Program-made: the position numbers and the translations under genes | Assembly: GCA_947479085.1 (NCBI GenBank) | Contig: CANJYB010000023.1 | Coordinates: 1-60,028 of the forward strand | DNA length: 60,028 nucleotides | Direction: 5' to 3' | Source of the DNA: Bacteroidota bacterium | GTDB taxonomy: Bacteria; Bacteroidota; Bacteroidia; 2-12-FULL-35-15 | The notes under the pieces: generated by a model | What the model was told of the DNA's origin: nothing | The model's input: the letters and a program-made list of their open reading frames with translations, nothing else | Database searches by the model: none | Shown here: positions 14,274 to 20,399 of the stretch, in pieces | How the letters are laid out: each line of letters begins with the position of its first letter | Numbering within the stretch: position 1 is the first letter of the stretch

Positions 14274-14445
14274 AGATTTTTAATAAAAACGAAAAAAGAC
14301 CTTTTAAAGGCATAATTTTCACACTTAAAATTTTTTTAGTGATTCTTTCTTTTCGGTTAACAAATTGATTATACAACGAATTTTGGCCTAAAAGTACTTT
14401 TCGGGATTAAAAACTGGGCGTTTTCAAATAATCTTGGAACATAGT

Positions 14446-14592
14446 GTAACCATACTGGAGCTCAATTACATTATGCTGGAGTATAATGTAACCATGTTAG
14501 AGTATAACCTGGTTATTCCTCTGAAATAGTTACATCATGCTCCAGCATGGTTGCACTGTGAAGCAAAATAGTGTGATTGTATAGTAAAATAG
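14446..14592. repeat. Degenerate 21-bp repeat array in a 427-bp intergenic gap
   Basis: Seven consecutive 21-base units can be aligned (14446, 14467, 14488, 14509, 14530, 14551, 14572). Units 1-3 share the pattern GTAACCAT-n-TGGAG-n-ATAA. Unit 5 resembles the reverse complement of unit 2. Units 6 and 7 share GTGn6-AAAATAG. TTACATTAT (14466-14474) and ATAATGTAA (14483-14491) form a perfect 9-bp stem, and CATGCT-CC-AGCATG (14536-14549) a second palindrome. The frame starting at 14446 reads as heptads (VTILELN, YIMLEYN, VTMLEYN) but stops at 14527-14529 and has no good start. The rest of the gap (14274-14445 and 14593-14678) holds no gene. Confidence 0.65.
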
Positions 14593-15151: not shown

Positions 15152-15217
15152 CTGATATAAATCAGTTGTGAATGTGATTTACATCATATTTTTCAAATAA
15201 GTTAATCAGGAATTTTG
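15152..15217 (+). promoter_or_regulatory. Two tandem FNR/DNR-like boxes and a -7-like element
   Basis: CTGAT-ATAA-ATCAG (15152-15165) and TGAT-TTAC-ATCA (15175-15186) are centred 22 bases apart, two helical turns. The second is followed after 23 bases by GAATTTTG (15210-15217), a one-mismatch -7 box. With that box the proximal site would be centred near -41, the usual activator position of FNR-type proteins. The same arrangement occurs at 19931-19995 and, with one site, at 17556-17599. Confidence 0.7.
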
Positions 15218-15277
15218 TCGCATAATTCTTACGAAAAAAGGTGCGGGGTCAGCACTGTAATCACTGACGATAATAAA

Positions 15278-15769
15278 ATGAAAAACAAAAAACTGAAATT
15301 GCTTATAGCCCTCTTGCTGGGTTTGGCATTAACAAATGTACGAGCTCAGGAAGCAACAACAGCATCAGGAGGTGATGCGGCTGGTATCGGAGGTTCGGTG
15401 AGTTATTCCGTGGGGCAGGTTGCTTATACTACTTCTGACGGGGCAAATGGTTCTGTGGCTGCCGGAGCGCAACAACCTTACGAAATATCATTGGTAACAG
15501 GAGTGCAGGAAGCTAACGGAATTAGCCTTACATTTTCGTTATATCCAAATCCTACAAACGACATAATTAAGTTGGAACTTAAAAACGACACAGCAGAAAA
15601 TCTTACGTATCAACTTTTCGATGTTAATGGAAAACTATTAGAAAGTAAAAAAATAGAAAATACAGAAACAACAATTAGTATGAATAATTATATATCCTCT
15701 ACTTATTTTTTAAAAGTAATTGATAAAAACAAAGGATTAAAAACATTTAAAATAATTAAAAACAAATAA
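15278..15769 (+). CDS. T9SS-exported protein
   Basis: The start is taken at the ATG at 15278, which opens into a signal peptide (KLLIALLLGLAL ... VRAQ). An in-frame TTG at 15215 lies inside the promoter element. The mature part is short: a Gly/Ser/Ala-rich segment (GGDAAGIGGSVSYSVGQVAY) seen in Bacteroidota secreted proteins. It is followed by a type A T9SS sorting domain (FSLYPNPTNDIIKLEL ... GLKTFKI) of about 75 residues. It should cross the outer membrane through T9SS and be surface-bound or released. It is the first gene of a two-gene unit under FNR-like boxes. Confidence 0.8.
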   Translation: MKNKKLKLLIALLLGLALTNVRAQEATTASGGDAAGIGGSVSYSVGQVAYTTSDGANGSVAAGAQQPYEISLVTGVQEANGISLTFSLYPNPTNDIIKLELKNDTAENLTYQLFDVNGKLLESKKIENTETTISMNNYISSTYFLKVIDKNKGLKTFKIIKNK

Positions 15770-15791
15770 TAACTAATAAATAAATAAACAA

Positions 15792-17357
15792 ATGAAAAAA
15801 CTAATAACAATTTTAGCAGTAGTATTAATTACTACAAGCATGTTTGCTCAGGCACCTCAAAAAATGAGCTACCAGGCAGTAATTCGCGATGCAGGAAGTG
15901 TACTTGTTATCAACCAAAGTATAGGAATGCAAATAAGTATTTTGCAGGGTTCTGCATCAGGAACCCCTGTATATGTGGAGACACAAACGCCAACAACTAA
16001 TGCAAATGGTTTGGTAAGTTTAGAAATTGGCGCAGGAACAGTAATTACAGGAGCTTTTGCGTCCATTAACTGGTCTGGCGGACCTTATTTTATTAAAACC
16101 GAAACTGACCCTACAGGAGGAATAGCCTATTCTATATCGGGAACAAACGAACTGATGAGTGTGCCTTACGCATTGAATGCAAAAACAGCAGATAATATAA
16201 CCGGAGGAGTTATTGAAACCGACCCTGTTTTTGGTGCCTGGGACAAAAGTACCGGAATTAATATTACTTCTTCTCAAGTCAGCGACTTTGAAACAACTGT
16301 AACTAATAATGTTTCAATGTTGGCAAACACTGCAAAGCACAGCTATCCAACTGCTGATTCAATAAAATTGTTTAGCATAGAGGCAGGAGCTGAGGTAAAT
16401 GTAAATGCCGACTGGAACGCATCAAGCGGTGATGCACAAATATTAAATAAACCAAACATAGCAACAGGTAATAATTCAGGAGATATGCAATACTGGAATG
16501 GTACTGCCTGGGTGCTTGTACCGGTAGGACAACCGGGTCAGTTTTTACAACTCACAACATCTAATGTCCCTTCCTGGTCAGGACCAACATATCCAGTTGT
16601 TACTACAACGGCAGTATCTGCCATAACATTTACCACTGCAATGAGTGGTGGGAATGTAGTAAGTAATGGTGGTGGAGTTTTAACCGGAGTTGGAGTTTGT
16701 TTCGGGTTAAATCCTAATCCAACGTTATTAGATAACATAACTGTGGATGCTCTCGGAAGTACTTTTACAAGCTCAATATCCGGTTTGACAGCCAATACCA
16801 CTTATTATGTGAGAGCCTATGCAACCAATAGCGCAGGTGCAGCTTATGGAAATGAAATAAGTTTTGCAACCCCGCCACTTCCTTTAATTGGTAGTAGTTA
16901 TCAGGGAGGCATTGTGTTTTATATCTTACAACCCGGAGATCCAGGATATATTGTAGGAGAAACACATGGTTTAATTGCAGCTCCGGTTGATCAAAGTGCA
17001 TCTGCCGCCTGGGGCTGTTATGGAACATTGATAAGTGGCGCAGATGGAACTGCATTAGGCACCGGTGCACAAAATACATTTGATATAGTTGCCGGATGTA
17101 CAACTGTTGGAATAGCTGCCGAAATATGTTCCAGTTTAGTTTTGGGTGGTTATAGCGACTGGTATTTACCAAGTAAAGATGAGTTGAATTTACTTTATAT
17201 AAACAATGGTCCAATTGGTTTAGCTCCCCAGAATTATTGGTGTTCTAGCGAGTACGATTCTTTAAATGGCTGGAAACTTAATTTTGGAAATGGAAGTTGG
17301 AGTTCTAACAGCAGTAAATTGAATGGACGATATGTACGTGCCATTCGGTCATTTTAA
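15792..17357 (+). CDS. Large secreted protein with DUF1566-like C-terminal domain
   Basis: Signal peptide 1-19 (cleavage after MFAQ). Residues ~20-135 form a module frequent in Bacteroidota secreted proteins (PQKMSYQAVIRDAGSVLV ... MSVPYALNAKTA). A middle part includes a fibronectin-like segment ending LTANTTYYVRAYATNSAGAAYG. The C-terminal ~145 residues (GGIVFYILQPGDPGY ... GGYSDWYLPSKDELNLLY ... RYVRAIRSF) match the DUF1566/Fibrobacter major-paralogous type. No T9SS tail is visible. It lies 22 bases after the previous secreted-protein gene and probably shares its promoter. Function unknown; likely an envelope or surface protein. Confidence 0.75.
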   Translation: MKKLITILAVVLITTSMFAQAPQKMSYQAVIRDAGSVLVINQSIGMQISILQGSASGTPVYVETQTPTTNANGLVSLEIGAGTVITGAFASINWSGGPYFIKTETDPTGGIAYSISGTNELMSVPYALNAKTADNITGGVIETDPVFGAWDKSTGINITSSQVSDFETTVTNNVSMLANTAKHSYPTADSIKLFSIEAGAEVNVNADWNASSGDAQILNKPNIATGNNSGDMQYWNGTAWVLVPVGQPGQFLQLTTSNVPSWSGPTYPVVTTTAVSAITFTTAMSGGNVVSNGGGVLTGVGVCFGLNPNPTLLDNITVDALGSTFTSSISGLTANTTYYVRAYATNSAGAAYGNEISFATPPLPLIGSSYQGGIVFYILQPGDPGYIVGETHGLIAAPVDQSASAAWGCYGTLISGADGTALGTGAQNTFDIVAGCTTVGIAAEICSSLVLGGYSDWYLPSKDELNLLYINNGPIGLAPQNYWCSSEYDSLNGWKLNFGNGSWSSNSSKLNGRYVRAIRSF

Positions 17358-17381
17358 TACTCGAAAAAAGATTATACAATT

Positions 17382-17419
17382 ATAAAGCATTGTTGGTGAA
17401 AACATCAACAATGCCTTAT
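17382..17419 (+). terminator. Hairpin terminator after the secreted-protein unit
   Basis: A 17-bp imperfect stem is built on GCATTGTTG (17387-17395) and CAACAATGC (17406-17414) with a short loop. The T-run that follows is weak (TTATCTTTT). Confidence 0.65.
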
Positions 17420-17555
17420 AGTTATCTTTTCATTCATTACAACATTAGGTTTCCTACCAAAAAGCTTTCGGATTGAAATTTCCTATTTATCAAAACGAAG
17501 TTCATCTTTACCACTTTAAGTATTTTTCTTAATAAAAAATACGAAACTTTCCACA

Positions 17556-17599
17556 TGATATCTATCATATTTCACCAATAGCCCCGGTCTTTATCTTTG
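17556..17599 (+). promoter_or_regulatory. FNR/DNR-like box and -7 promoter of the kinase/regulator operon
   Basis: TGAT-ATCT-ATCA (17556-17567) is followed after 24 bases by a perfect -7 box TATCTTTG (17592-17599). The palindrome is centred about 30 bases before the -7 box, as in the two other promoters, and there is no -33 TTG. This suggests activator-dependent, possibly autogenous, control. Confidence 0.7.
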
Positions 17600-17625
17600 G
17601 AAGTTAAAATTCATATATCTTTACG

Positions 17626-18831
17626 ATGAAAAATTCAGGTATACATAAGATGGAAAGTAAAGAAGGCATTGATGCTCTTTTTCAGTATGCTACAGAAGGA
17701 ATTCTGGTTGCAAATGAAAATGGAGAAATAATAAACATTAATCCCAGTGGCGAAAAATTATTTGGATATGAGCATGGCGAATTGATTGGAAAAAAAATCG
17801 AAACCCTGGTGCCTCCCAATTATTTGCACAAACATGAAAAGGTAAGGAGTAACTACAACGAAAACCCCCATGCCCGCTCCATGGGAACAGGCAAAGACCT
17901 TTTCGGGTTAAAAAAAGATGGCACACAAATTCCGGTCGAAATTAGTTTAAGCCCCTATTCAAGTGATAATGGAAAATTTGTTATTGCCTTTATTATAGAT
18001 ATTACTATACGGAAACAGGCAGAAGAGAAATTAAAAAACTATTCTACAGAATTAGAAAATCAGGTTGGGAAAAGAACAATGATTTTAGAAGAAGCCATAG
18101 GTGAATTAGAACAAACCAAAACCGAATTGAACGAAGCCCTTGAAAAGGAAAAAGAACTGAACGAATTAAAGTCACGTTTTGTTTCTATGGCTTCTCACGA
18201 ATTCCGAACACCACTTGCTACCATTATGTCTTCACTTTCCTTGGTAAAATCTTATGGCGACCGGAACGATAAGGAAAAACAAAATACCCATATCAATAAA
18301 ATAAAATCTTCCATTCATAACCTTACGGATATTTTAAATGATTTTCTTTCGGTAAGCAAGCTGGAAGAAGGCAAGATAGAAAAGGTGATGGAACAATTTG
18401 ATATTACTGAATACATAACAGATATCATTTCGGAAATGAAACCACTGGCTAAAAATGGACAGGAATTTATTTATAACCATACAGGAGAAAAGGTAGTTAA
18501 ACTGGATAAAAAACTACTGACCAACATCTTTTTTAATTTGATTTCTAATGCCATAAAATTTTCTCCTGAAGAAAAACCAATTATCATAACTACTATTGTT
18601 AGCCCGGCTTCCATCAAAATTTCCATTGAAGACAAAGGAATGGGTATTTCAAAAGAAGACCAGGAACACCTGTTTGAAAGGTTTTTCAGAGGAAACAATG
18701 CAACACATATACAAGGAACCGGACTGGGATTAAATATTGTAGTAAAATATTTAGAACTGATGAACGGTACTATTAATTTTGAAAGTAAAGAAAACCAAGG
18801 AACAACATTTAATATAACATTACCACAATGA
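17626..18831 (+). CDS. PAS-domain sensor histidine kinase
   Basis: A single PAS domain (about residues 12-130, with YATEGILVANENGEIININPS and LIGKKIETLVPP) is followed by a coiled coil (about 132-185). The HisKA box SHEFRTPLATI follows, with the phospho-acceptor His near residue 191. A full HATPase domain completes it (N box NLISNAIKF, G1 EDKGMGIS, G2 GTGLGLNIV). No membrane segment is present, so the signal is cytoplasmic; no heme- or Fe-S-binding motif is obvious in the PAS domain. It overlaps the next gene by four bases (ATGA), so kinase and regulator are translationally coupled partners. Confidence 0.9.
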   Translation: MKNSGIHKMESKEGIDALFQYATEGILVANENGEIININPSGEKLFGYEHGELIGKKIETLVPPNYLHKHEKVRSNYNENPHARSMGTGKDLFGLKKDGTQIPVEISLSPYSSDNGKFVIAFIIDITIRKQAEEKLKNYSTELENQVGKRTMILEEAIGELEQTKTELNEALEKEKELNELKSRFVSMASHEFRTPLATIMSSLSLVKSYGDRNDKEKQNTHINKIKSSIHNLTDILNDFLSVSKLEEGKIEKVMEQFDITEYITDIISEMKPLAKNGQEFIYNHTGEKVVKLDKKLLTNIFFNLISNAIKFSPEEKPIIITTIVSPASIKISIEDKGMGISKEDQEHLFERFFRGNNATHIQGTGLGLNIVVKYLELMNGTINFESKENQGTTFNITLPQ

Positions 18832-19886
18832 GAAAAATTTTATTGATAGAAGATAACAAGGATATGCGCGAAAACACCGCAGAAATTCTTGAGTTGGAAG
18901 ATTACAAAGTGATAACTGCTGCCAACGGAAAAGACGGGGTGGCATTGGCTAAAAAAGACAAGCCGGATTTAATAATATGCGACATTATGATGCCGGTAAT
19001 GGATGGATATGGCGTACTTTCCCAACTTTCAAAAGATGAGGAAACGGCATGGATACCTTTTATTTTTCTTACTGCCAAAGCCGAAAGGAGCGACCTCCGG
19101 AAAGGAATGGAGATGGGAGCAGACGATTATTTAACAAAACCCTTTGATGCGGAAGAATTAATAAAAGCTATAAATACCCGTTTCAAAAAATCAGGTCTGA
19201 TGAAACAGGAGTTTTCGAAAAACATTGAAGGTCTTAATGATTTTTTAAGTTCTGCCAAAGGTATAGAACCCTTAAAAAAGCTTTCGGAACTGAAAGAACT
19301 AAAAGATTTAAAAAAGGGAGACGTTATTTATAAAGAAGGAGCATATCCAAACGGGGTATTTTTTGTGGTGGAAGGAAAAATAAAAACCTACAAAACAAAT
19401 TCTGATGGAAAGGAGTTCATCACCGGTCTTTTTAAAAAAGGAGATTTTTTTGGTTACCTCGAAATGATTGATGACCACAAACATTCCGATACTGCAGAGG
19501 CTTTGGAAGGTGCAACAGTTTGCCTTATCCCAAAAGAAGAGTTTTTCTCCATTCTTTATTTGAATACAGAAGTATCTCAACGGTTTATTAAAATGCTGGC
19601 AGATAACATAAAGGAAAAAGAAGAACAACTACTGAAACTTGCATACAACTCTTCCAGAAAAAGAGTGGCAGAAGCCATTCTTACACTTTACAGACGTTAT
19701 AAAACCGAAACAGATGCTCTTTTTTCCATGGATGTTTCACGCGAGGATTTGGCCAACTTATCTGGTAACTCATACGAAAATACCATCAGGACGCTTCATG
19801 ATTTTAAGGAAGAAGGGTTAATAAAAATCGAGCAAAAAAATATTACCATTCTGGAATTAGAAAAACTCCTGAATCTGAAAAACTAA
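18828..19886 (+). CDS. Receiver-CRP/FNR fusion response regulator
   Basis: An N-terminal receiver domain (1-125) has the acidic pocket, phospho-acceptor Asp52 in IICDIMMP, Thr82 and Lys104 (YLTKPF). A linker leads into a cyclic-nucleotide-type sensor beta roll (~150-255; GDVIYKEGAYPNGVFFVVEGKIK, GDFFGYLEM), a dimerisation helix, and a CRP-type helix-turn-helix (SREDLANLSGNSYENTIRTL, about 303-322). The recognition helix has Glu and Arg spaced as in FNR (E-x3-R), which fits the TGAT-N4-ATCA boxes nearby. There is no N-terminal Cys cluster, so unlike FNR it should be switched by phosphorylation from the overlapping PAS kinase. Confidence 0.9.
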   Translation: MRKILLIEDNKDMRENTAEILELEDYKVITAANGKDGVALAKKDKPDLIICDIMMPVMDGYGVLSQLSKDEETAWIPFIFLTAKAERSDLRKGMEMGADDYLTKPFDAEELIKAINTRFKKSGLMKQEFSKNIEGLNDFLSSAKGIEPLKKLSELKELKDLKKGDVIYKEGAYPNGVFFVVEGKIKTYKTNSDGKEFITGLFKKGDFFGYLEMIDDHKHSDTAEALEGATVCLIPKEEFFSILYLNTEVSQRFIKMLADNIKEKEEQLLKLAYNSSRKRVAEAILTLYRRYKTETDALFSMDVSREDLANLSGNSYENTIRTLHDFKEEGLIKIEQKNITILELEKLLNLKN

Positions 19887-19930
19887 CAGGTTCAAAACCC
19901 GAGAGGTTCTGTAAACAGGGGCTATTCATC

Positions 19931-19995
19931 TGATAAAAATCATATCCAGGTATGATTTACATCATATTTTATTCTTTCACATTGTCTTAATTTTG
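19931..19995 (+). promoter_or_regulatory. Two tandem FNR/DNR-like boxes and -7 promoter before the 126-residue protein
   Basis: TGAT-AAAA-ATCA (19931-19942) and TGAT-TTAC-ATCA (19953-19964) are centred 22 bases apart, exactly as at 15153-15186. The proximal box has the same core sequence as there (TGATTTACATCA). A perfect -7 box TAATTTTG (19988-19995) begins 23 bases after it. Confidence 0.75.
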
Positions 19996-20018: not shown

Positions 20019-20399
20019 ATGAAAATAGCTATTAACGACAAACGGAAAATTTTCGTTATTCAGGAAGAATTTAATCAACAATTTCCATTTCTGAAGATTG
20101 AATTTTATTCAAAGCCGAATACAAAAGATGGCCCCCCGTCAAAAAAATTAATTAAACATCACAACAAAACCCTGAACGAATGTAGAACCATTCATAAAGC
20201 AGGAGCTATTAATATCACCCCGCAAATGACCGTTTCCAACCTGGAACATCATTTGAATGATATTTATGGCTTATCTGTTCAGATTTTCCGCAAATCCGGC
20301 AGAGTGTGGCTGGAAGCAACCGTTACTGATGGATGGACATTGGAAGAGCAGAACCATCAGGGAGAAATGTTAAGCAATCCGGTATCTAAAACAGCTTAG
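20019..20399 (+). CDS. Conserved-looking protein of unknown function
   Basis: This 126-residue, mildly basic, soluble protein has no signal peptide or membrane segment. Visible features are FNQQFPFLKIEFYSKP near the N-terminus, ITPQMTVSNLEHHLNDIYGLSVQIFRKSGRVWLE in the second half, and a C-terminal WTLEEQNHQGE. The part from residue 65 reads as alpha-beta. I do not recognise a named family, though similar short proteins occur in Bacteroidota. Two FNR-like boxes directly upstream make it a likely target of the adjacent receiver-CRP regulator. A strong terminator follows, so it is a single-gene unit. Confidence 0.7.
   Translation: MKIAINDKRKIFVIQEEFNQQFPFLKIEFYSKPNTKDGPPSKKLIKHHNKTLNECRTIHKAGAINITPQMTVSNLEHHLNDIYGLSVQIFRKSGRVWLEATVTDGWTLEEQNHQGEMLSNPVSKTA

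Follow-up and report, generated by a model that had tools for sequence, protein, structure and literature searches.

In the FixL-FixJ-FixK pathway of rhizobia, a heme-PAS kinase acts through two further proteins in series, FixJ, which joins a receiver to its own LuxR/GerE-type helix-turn-helix (HTH), and FixK, a stand-alone CRP-type protein without a receiver. The stretch of DNA analysed here, a 60 kb contig of a Bacteroidota bacterium (the window; contig C23 of a genome of 4.28 Mb in 50 contigs, 99.4% complete), encodes a PAS histidine kinase of 401 amino acids (aa), the proposed oxygen sensor (17626..18831, forward strand; PAS_9, HisKA, and HATPase_c domains), followed, with an overlap of 4 bp between the kinase open reading frame (ORF) and the start of the regulator, by a REC - cNMP_binding - HTH_Crp_2 protein of 352 aa (REC-CRP; 18828..19886, forward strand). 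Assignment to the Bacteroidota follows from type IX secretion system (T9SS) sorting domains, TAnnTTTG promoters, and named relatives of REC-CRP, among them Mucilaginibacter and Chitinophaga. The likeness to the rhizobial pathway lies in the heme-PAS-like kinase and the low-oxygen logic, and the difference in the single polypeptide that carries both the receiver and the CRP-type activator, so that the transcriptional step between FixJ and FixK is skipped. We consider it likely, with a probability of roughly 0.7, that the pair forms a FixL-FixJ-FixK-like low-oxygen pathway in which the receiver and a FixK-like activator are fused in one protein.

Published passages describe FixK-type proteins as CRP-family activators without an iron-sulfur cluster, with the rhizobial cascades using separate proteins (PMC4999443), and list the cbb3 oxidase (fixNOQP) among the targets that depend on FixK (PMC7888657). 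The hFixL-FxkR-FixKf pathway, in which an oxygen kinase likewise leads to a FixK-type protein according to passages of the same papers (PMC4999443, PMC7888657), differs from the present locus in its three proteins in series, its hybrid kinase, and another kind of response-regulator binding site. Within the Bacteroidota, MalR and P. gingivalis 2gau share the superfamily and phylum of REC-CRP, with 2gau 31% identical over the aligned part. For CRP/FNR homologues of Flavobacteriales and Saprospiraceae, carbon sensing has been proposed in passages of PMC8510549, a different role, and the word "receiver" is absent from the main text of that paper. Passages on F. psychrophilum report a strong induction of cbb3 and heme-biosynthesis genes under oxygen limitation and name no cbb3 regulator, with the terms fnr and crp absent from the main text (PMC9723704). 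No description of the fused switch was found in the open-licence literature searched, which is not proof of absence; as far as the searches showed, oxygen sensing and cbb3 induction in aerobic Bacteroidota are little described within that literature.

In the mechanism that we propose, the kinase and REC-CRP would act as a two-component oxygen switch, with the heme-PAS kinase phosphorylating Asp52 of the receiver domain at low oxygen. Phosphorylated REC-CRP would then bind as a dimer, its recognition helix (Glu317 and Arg321) reading TGA-N6-TCA-type boxes at -41.5, and would give class II activation of promoters that combine a TAnnTTTG -7 element with the lack of a -33 element. Some of these promoters may be strengthened by another dimer bound 22 bp, or roughly two turns of the helix, further upstream. 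The proposed regulon would take in the operon of the switch itself and the three promoters of the window, along with hemN, the genes for the cbb3 oxidase and its maturation, and further redox genes. The domains, the boxes and their fixed spacing, the conservation, the target genes, and the finding of no second CRP-family protein are results of computation; heme binding, the oxygen signal, phosphotransfer, the dimer, DNA binding, and the direction of regulation are what we infer.

The receiver of REC-CRP (residues 4-116) sets it apart from FixK, and its continuation into cNMP_binding (PF00027, E = 1.5e-22) and HTH_Crp_2 (PF13545, E = 1.8e-14) sets it apart from FixJ. Membership of the CRP/FNR superfamily is indicated by cNMP_binding followed by a CRP-type HTH, and by an E-x3-R motif in the recognition helix. 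As the only PF13545 and the only PF00027 match genome-wide (E threshold 0.001), REC-CRP is the sole candidate of this superfamily found. Across 22 REC-CRP sequences, the presumed phospho-acceptor Asp52 (codon 18981..18983, forward strand) is invariant, as are Glu8, Asp9, Thr82, and Lys104. The recognition-helix codons E317-N-T-I-R321 lie at 19776..19790 (forward strand), with Glu317 and Arg321 kept in 22/22, bearing out the Glu and Arg at FNR spacing described in an earlier reading of this DNA from its letters alone (the sequence-only reading). Position 320, occupied by Ser in FNR, is Ile in 19 sequences and Ser in 3. The AlphaFold model of REC-CRP is confident inside the domains and not between them, with a pTM of 0.40 and an unreliable domain arrangement; only the CRP part was used, which matches CRP and FNR structures, including P. 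gingivalis 2gau.

FNR activates class II promoters from a site at -41.5. REC-CRP resembles FNR and ANR in this promoter type, in the E...R motif of the recognition helix, and in its respiratory targets, with the NCBIfam Fnr model matching residues 150-350 (1.5e-26; 93 bits, cut-off 228). The label "FNR/DNR-like" given in the sequence-only reading holds for the mode of action, which is FNR/FixK-like, but not for identity with FNR. Classical FNR was rejected, since REC-CRP lacks conserved cluster cysteines, the single cysteine invariant in 22/22 being Cys51 of the receiver, and since the outer bases of the box are not those of TTGAT-N4-ATCAA. Regulators of the DNR/NnrR type sense NO through the CRP sensor domain and act on denitrification genes, none of which was noticed among the targets examined. 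In cAMP-responsive CRP an Arg precedes Ser in the phosphate-binding cassette; in REC-CRP the corresponding column, judged by eye to be position 221, holds Arg in 0/22 sequences, and a cAMP-CRP identity was likewise rejected. With neither cluster cysteines nor the cAMP-type Arg conserved, the input to REC-CRP should come through the receiver.

The window holds exactly five TGATNNNNATCA boxes in the 60 kb searched, all exact, on the forward strand, and within three promoters. Promoter 1 has a distal box at 15153..15164 and a proximal box at 15175..15186, 23 bp before the -7 element GAATTTTG (15210..15217; one mismatch to TAnnTTTG), with the distal box 22 bp upstream of the proximal, in the register seen in relatives. 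The kinase/regulator operon has a single box (17556..17567) 24 bp before TATCTTTG (17592..17599), and promoter 3 has boxes at 19931..19942 and 19953..19964, the latter 23 bp before TAATTTTG (19988..19995). Start-to-start spacing is exactly 22 bp in both pairs. The five positions noted in the sequence-only reading, and its distance of 23-24 bases from proximal box to -7 element, are thus those measured (23, 24, and 23 bp).

Chance palindromes in AT-rich intergenic DNA are one explanation for such boxes, and the bare TGATN4ATCA, with 124 occurrences genome-wide compared with 46 for the reversed pattern, predicts little alone. The window count of 5, however, stands against an expectation of 1.37 (sd 1.15), with a shuffle maximum of 4 and 0/100 dinucleotide shuffles reaching 5, as the sequence-only reading had supposed in calling the five boxes unlikely by chance. 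Perfect 22-bp tandem pairs occur three times in the genome, two of them inside the window, and never in the reversed control, with the excess reduced to 41 against 21 when up to three mismatches are allowed. The box followed by N17-30 and TAnnTTTG occurs 10 times compared with 1 in the control, and box-N23-TAnnTTTG with at most two mismatches 62 times compared with 28-29, such that about half of these loose sites are expected by chance. The strong predictor is therefore the box with its spacing and few mismatches, the bare box being a weak one.

The same spacing recurs in relatives. Gaps from box to -7 element were compiled from the rows listed for 17 genomes of the order and from rows of the present genome, for which the gap range was narrower, with three rows of G406 omitted. 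Among the matches listed for the 14 genomes that carry REC-CRP, gap 23 accounts for 47/142 and gap 24 for 18/142, with 21 gaps possible (for gap 23, p about 1e-26 over these 142 rows relative to an even distribution of gaps); among those listed for four genomes of the order without REC-CRP, 4/15 fall at gaps 22-24. A set of 45 REC-CRP loci (the window, 31 from the order, and 13 named distant loci, with L127-L130 being second REC-CRP copies from genomes already counted) yields 26 intergenic boxes at gap 23 from 18 loci (at most one mismatch, exact -7 element) and 6 at gap 24, with no other gap from 8 to 40 exceeding 2. In three of the 13 distant loci (Salinimicrobium L172, Aquimarina L173, and Arcticibacter L171), a gap-23 box with an exact TAnnTTTG precedes the gene after REC-CRP, and weaker gap-23 boxes do so in L164 and L174. 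Class-wide, the exact box-N23-TAnnTTTG is present in 227/395 genomes, with a match to the reversed control read in 7 rows, and perfect tandem boxes in 69/395. Taken with the shuffles and reversed-pattern controls, the spacing peak in relatives and the class-wide excess refute chance palindromes, the probability of which we regard as negligible; equal frequency elsewhere and a lack of conservation, either of which would have spoken against a regulon, were thus both looked for and the regulon stood. One of these 69, G318, carries 19 tandem TGATAATTATCA-type pairs, with the reversed control matched 60 times on each strand, and these are apparently an unrelated dispersed palindromic repeat.

REC-CRP occurs in 28/36 genomes of the order. 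In the class it was counted as present where the best E fell below about 1e-60, with G057 (split by a stop) and G155 (at a contig edge) included, and is found, by our reading, in 97/198 genomes. The 97 carriers have a mean of 1.96 box-N23 promoters, 69 of them at least one, compared with a mean of 0.82 in the 101 genomes without REC-CRP (p 1e-5). Gap 23-24 boxes were also observed near stand-alone CRP-type ORFs (G335:C7:1686297, G391:C5:19201, and G399:C49:1984), with 93-119 bp from the end of the -7 element to the matched part of the ORF, which suggests that in these three genomes receiver-less CRP proteins share the promoter design.

Base composition was tabulated for 68 gap-23 sites, each with a -7 score of at least 5/6 and no more than one mismatch in the box, allowed at any of its eight positions. 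TGA and TCA are kept in 97-100% of sites, the fourth T of the box in 79%, and the opposite A in 69%; the base 3' of TCA is T in 80% and A in 5%, and the base 5' of TGA is T in just 17%. At exactly 22 bp further upstream the table shows a second, weaker box (T 64, G 52, A 54 ... T 69, C 54, A 66%), and no -33 TTTG is visible in it, in agreement with the lack of a -33 element noted in the sequence-only reading. In F. psychrophilum, TAnnTTTG is placed at -12 to -5 in passages of PMC9723704, and in this register a gap of 23 bp places the centre of the box at -41.5, as in class II promoters and as the sequence-only reading had proposed; a gap of 24 bp gives -42.5, and the upstream box -63.5. With start positions taken from F. 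psychrophilum, these sites would correspond to class II CRP/FNR-activated promoters. CRP/FNR proteins can also repress, and as sequence gives no direction of regulation, REC-CRP might be a repressor or dual regulator at the boxes. We consider this very unlikely, with the constant -41.5 and the missing -33 element suiting an activator-dependent promoter, whereas a repressor needs no single fixed distance.

Sites at gap 23 with at most one mismatch, the set resolved gene by gene, number 21 in the genome, 13 of them outside ORFs, and at 12 of these 13 an ORF starts 24-98 bp downstream. The cbb3 (cco) locus (G000:C5, about 164,593-175,850; L131) has two boxed promoters, one before a 75-aa gene and ccoI, which carries the third perfect tandem pair, outside the window, and one before ccoS and the rest of the locus, a pair with one mismatch in each box. 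The order is 75 aa, ccoI, ccoS, ccoN-ccoO fused as one 712-aa ORF, 60 aa, ccoP, ccoG, ccoH, DsbD-like, PTPS, and hemN, the last above its cut-off, with the genes from ccoS onward probably forming one transcript. The other ORFs of the 12 encode a rhodanese, the 126-aa protein of window promoter 3, a receiver standing alone, a fatty-acid desaturase, two proteins with a T9SS tail (one of them at window promoter 1), a cytochrome-like protein with one CxxCH (PF13442 at 25.9 bits, cut-off 27), a PaaE-like reductase (379 bits, cut-off 421), and an HgmA_N-domain protein (for which the homogentisate dioxygenase model scores far under its NCBIfam cut-off); one more, of 109 aa, is a doubtful ORF. Allowing gaps of 24-25 bp brings in the kinase operon together with a gene for a 128-aa protein and one for a cation P-type ATPase. 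The 75-aa protein (L016 1605-1832) and a 73-aa protein (L109 11439-11657, reverse strand) are 33% identical (2.5e-12) and without a family match, each encoded immediately 5' of ccoI or its relative and preceded by a boxed promoter.

The best PDB matches of the kinase PAS are DosP (1.4e-14) and FixL (3.8e-12), with His70 (codon 17833..17835, forward strand) aligned with the histidine that serves DosP as heme ligand. A related kinase lies directly upstream of REC-CRP in 38/45 loci; 36 of the 38 were usable for alignment, L112 (cut by a contig edge) and L127 (without PAS) being dropped, and the His70 column is His in 36/36, with the adjoining positions varying. Three other PAS regions of the genome were matched to this column, and two lack the His. 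By sequence, the protein thus combines the features of FixL, a PAS with a heme-ligand His and a histidine kinase.

A number of observations weigh against the oxygen switch, and the first concern its sensor. In FixL, which binds heme and whose kinase activity is inhibited by oxygen, a distal Arg contacts oxygen; this FixL/DosP column is Lys in the kinase described here, and across the 36 kinases it is Met in 14, Arg in 13, and other residues in 9. Furthermore, of the three other PAS regions, the third (L246, 28% identity) carries a His in the His70 column, adjacent to a 3-residue gap, so that a His in the ligand column does not by itself mark an oxygen sensor. The REC-CRP regulon may thus be real with a kinase that senses redox state, NO, or another ligand, the cbb3 link then reflecting respiratory state, a reading also favoured by the predicted nature of heme binding and by targets from oxygen-using enzyme families, namely the desaturase, the PaaE-like reductase, and the HgmA_N protein. 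We hold this to be rather unlikely, given that the closest solved PAS relatives are oxygen sensors, that the ligand-aligned His is kept throughout the kinases beside REC-CRP, and that cbb3 genes and hemN are among the targets.

The regulator and its sites also provide contrary points. The search for further CRP-family proteins covered PF13545 and PF00027 alone, and 47 of the 101 REC-CRP-free genomes have at least one box-N23 promoter, which suggests that elsewhere this architecture serves other regulators. Another regulator could accordingly bind the boxes here, with REC-CRP active elsewhere, a view helped by the existence of stand-alone CRP-type proteins in relatives and by the predicted nature of REC-CRP binding. 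This we judge decidedly improbable, with no second HTH_Crp_2 or cNMP_binding protein found in a nearly complete genome and boxes at 23-24 bp clustering around REC-CRP genes in relatives; the tie between the regulon and the kinase/REC-CRP pair drawn in the sequence-only reading has held, with the spacing kept in relatives and REC-CRP the only CRP-family protein found. Additionally, 8 of the 21 best sites of the genome fall within ORFs longer than 70 codons, and the locus counts are not independent, the loci being related.

Conservation of the targets is limited. At 20 listed sites fetched from four genomes of the order, a target in common with the present genome was found at just 3, the others differing, and the regulon therefore turns over. 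A gap 22-24 box precedes ccoI in just 4 of the 11 relatives in which ccoI lies near REC-CRP, one of the four being weak. Among shared targets, the 128-aa protein recurs in G403 (78%) and G220 (71%), and the rhodanese in G403 (L259 882-1235, reverse strand) with 92% identity and a promoter identical over 43 bp; the REC-CRP of G403 is 67% identical to that of the present genome, and the 43-bp promoter identity may reflect transfer or contamination. The 128-130-aa protein (L032 1573-1956, L258, and L264; 71-78% identical) stands behind a box at gap 23 or 24 in each of three genomes and has no Pfam match (L032 copy tested), and on sequence grounds would be a conserved regulon member of unknown function. 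G220 has a boxed site at an enolase, the same 431-aa protein by sequence as in G193, and in G403 a cytochrome-like protein stands behind a perfect tandem pair. In G064, a gap-23 box precedes a 6-hydroxycyclohex-1-ene-1-carbonyl-CoA dehydrogenase (above cut-off), and 2-oxoacid and indolepyruvate oxidoreductase-like subunits (below cut-off) and a thiolase-like protein are boxed; at its loci L248, L249, L250, and L255 the boxed genes resemble those of anaerobic aromatic and 2-oxoacid metabolism.

Autoregulation, as put forward in the sequence-only reading, is likely in this genome judging from its operon promoter, but does not extend to all relatives. Over 44 loci (L112 dropped from the 45), a gap 22-24 box precedes the REC-CRP operon or gene in 19, comprising 18/31 of the order and 1/13 of the distant loci, and is lacking from the REC-CRP promoter in 13/31 and 12/13 respectively. 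General autoregulation was therefore not borne out by the distant loci, in some of which the upstream DNA is short (165 bp in L167).

The first gene of promoter 1 encodes a 163-aa T9SS type A sorting-domain protein (15278..15769, forward strand; Pfam PF18962, 6.7e-13), and is followed by a gene for a 521-aa protein (15792..17357, forward strand) with a weak Lcl_C match (PF07603, 34.6 bits, slightly below the cut-off of 34.9), which is possibly co-transcribed with it. The 126-aa protein of promoter 3 (20019..20399, forward strand) is without family assignment, with no match in Pfam or NCBIfam and an uninformative structure prediction (mean pLDDT 47, 3 sequences). Relatives 66% and 78% identical lie behind REC-CRP in L100 and L101; a single conserved gene behind REC-CRP in every relative was rejected, as 8 of the 10 loci compared have other proteins there, 9-20% identical. 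Two repeats mark an intergenic stretch of the window at 14428-14548, one direct (33 nt, 73%) and the other an imperfect inverted repeat of 30 nt (83%, loop 16).

Beyond this genome, we think the odds slightly favour a large share of the class, probably Bacteroidia, governing life at low oxygen by a one-step FixL-FixJ-FixK, in which the fused REC-CRP would read TGA(T)N4(A)TCA-T at -41.5/-63.5 before a -33-less TAnnTTTG. The analysis puts forward, for one organism, a sensor, a regulator, and a binding box, together with a fixed promoter geometry, for all of which others can be scanned. If the proposal is true, the phylum, in which promoters depart from the E. coli type, would gain a ready design for promoters that depend on an activator.

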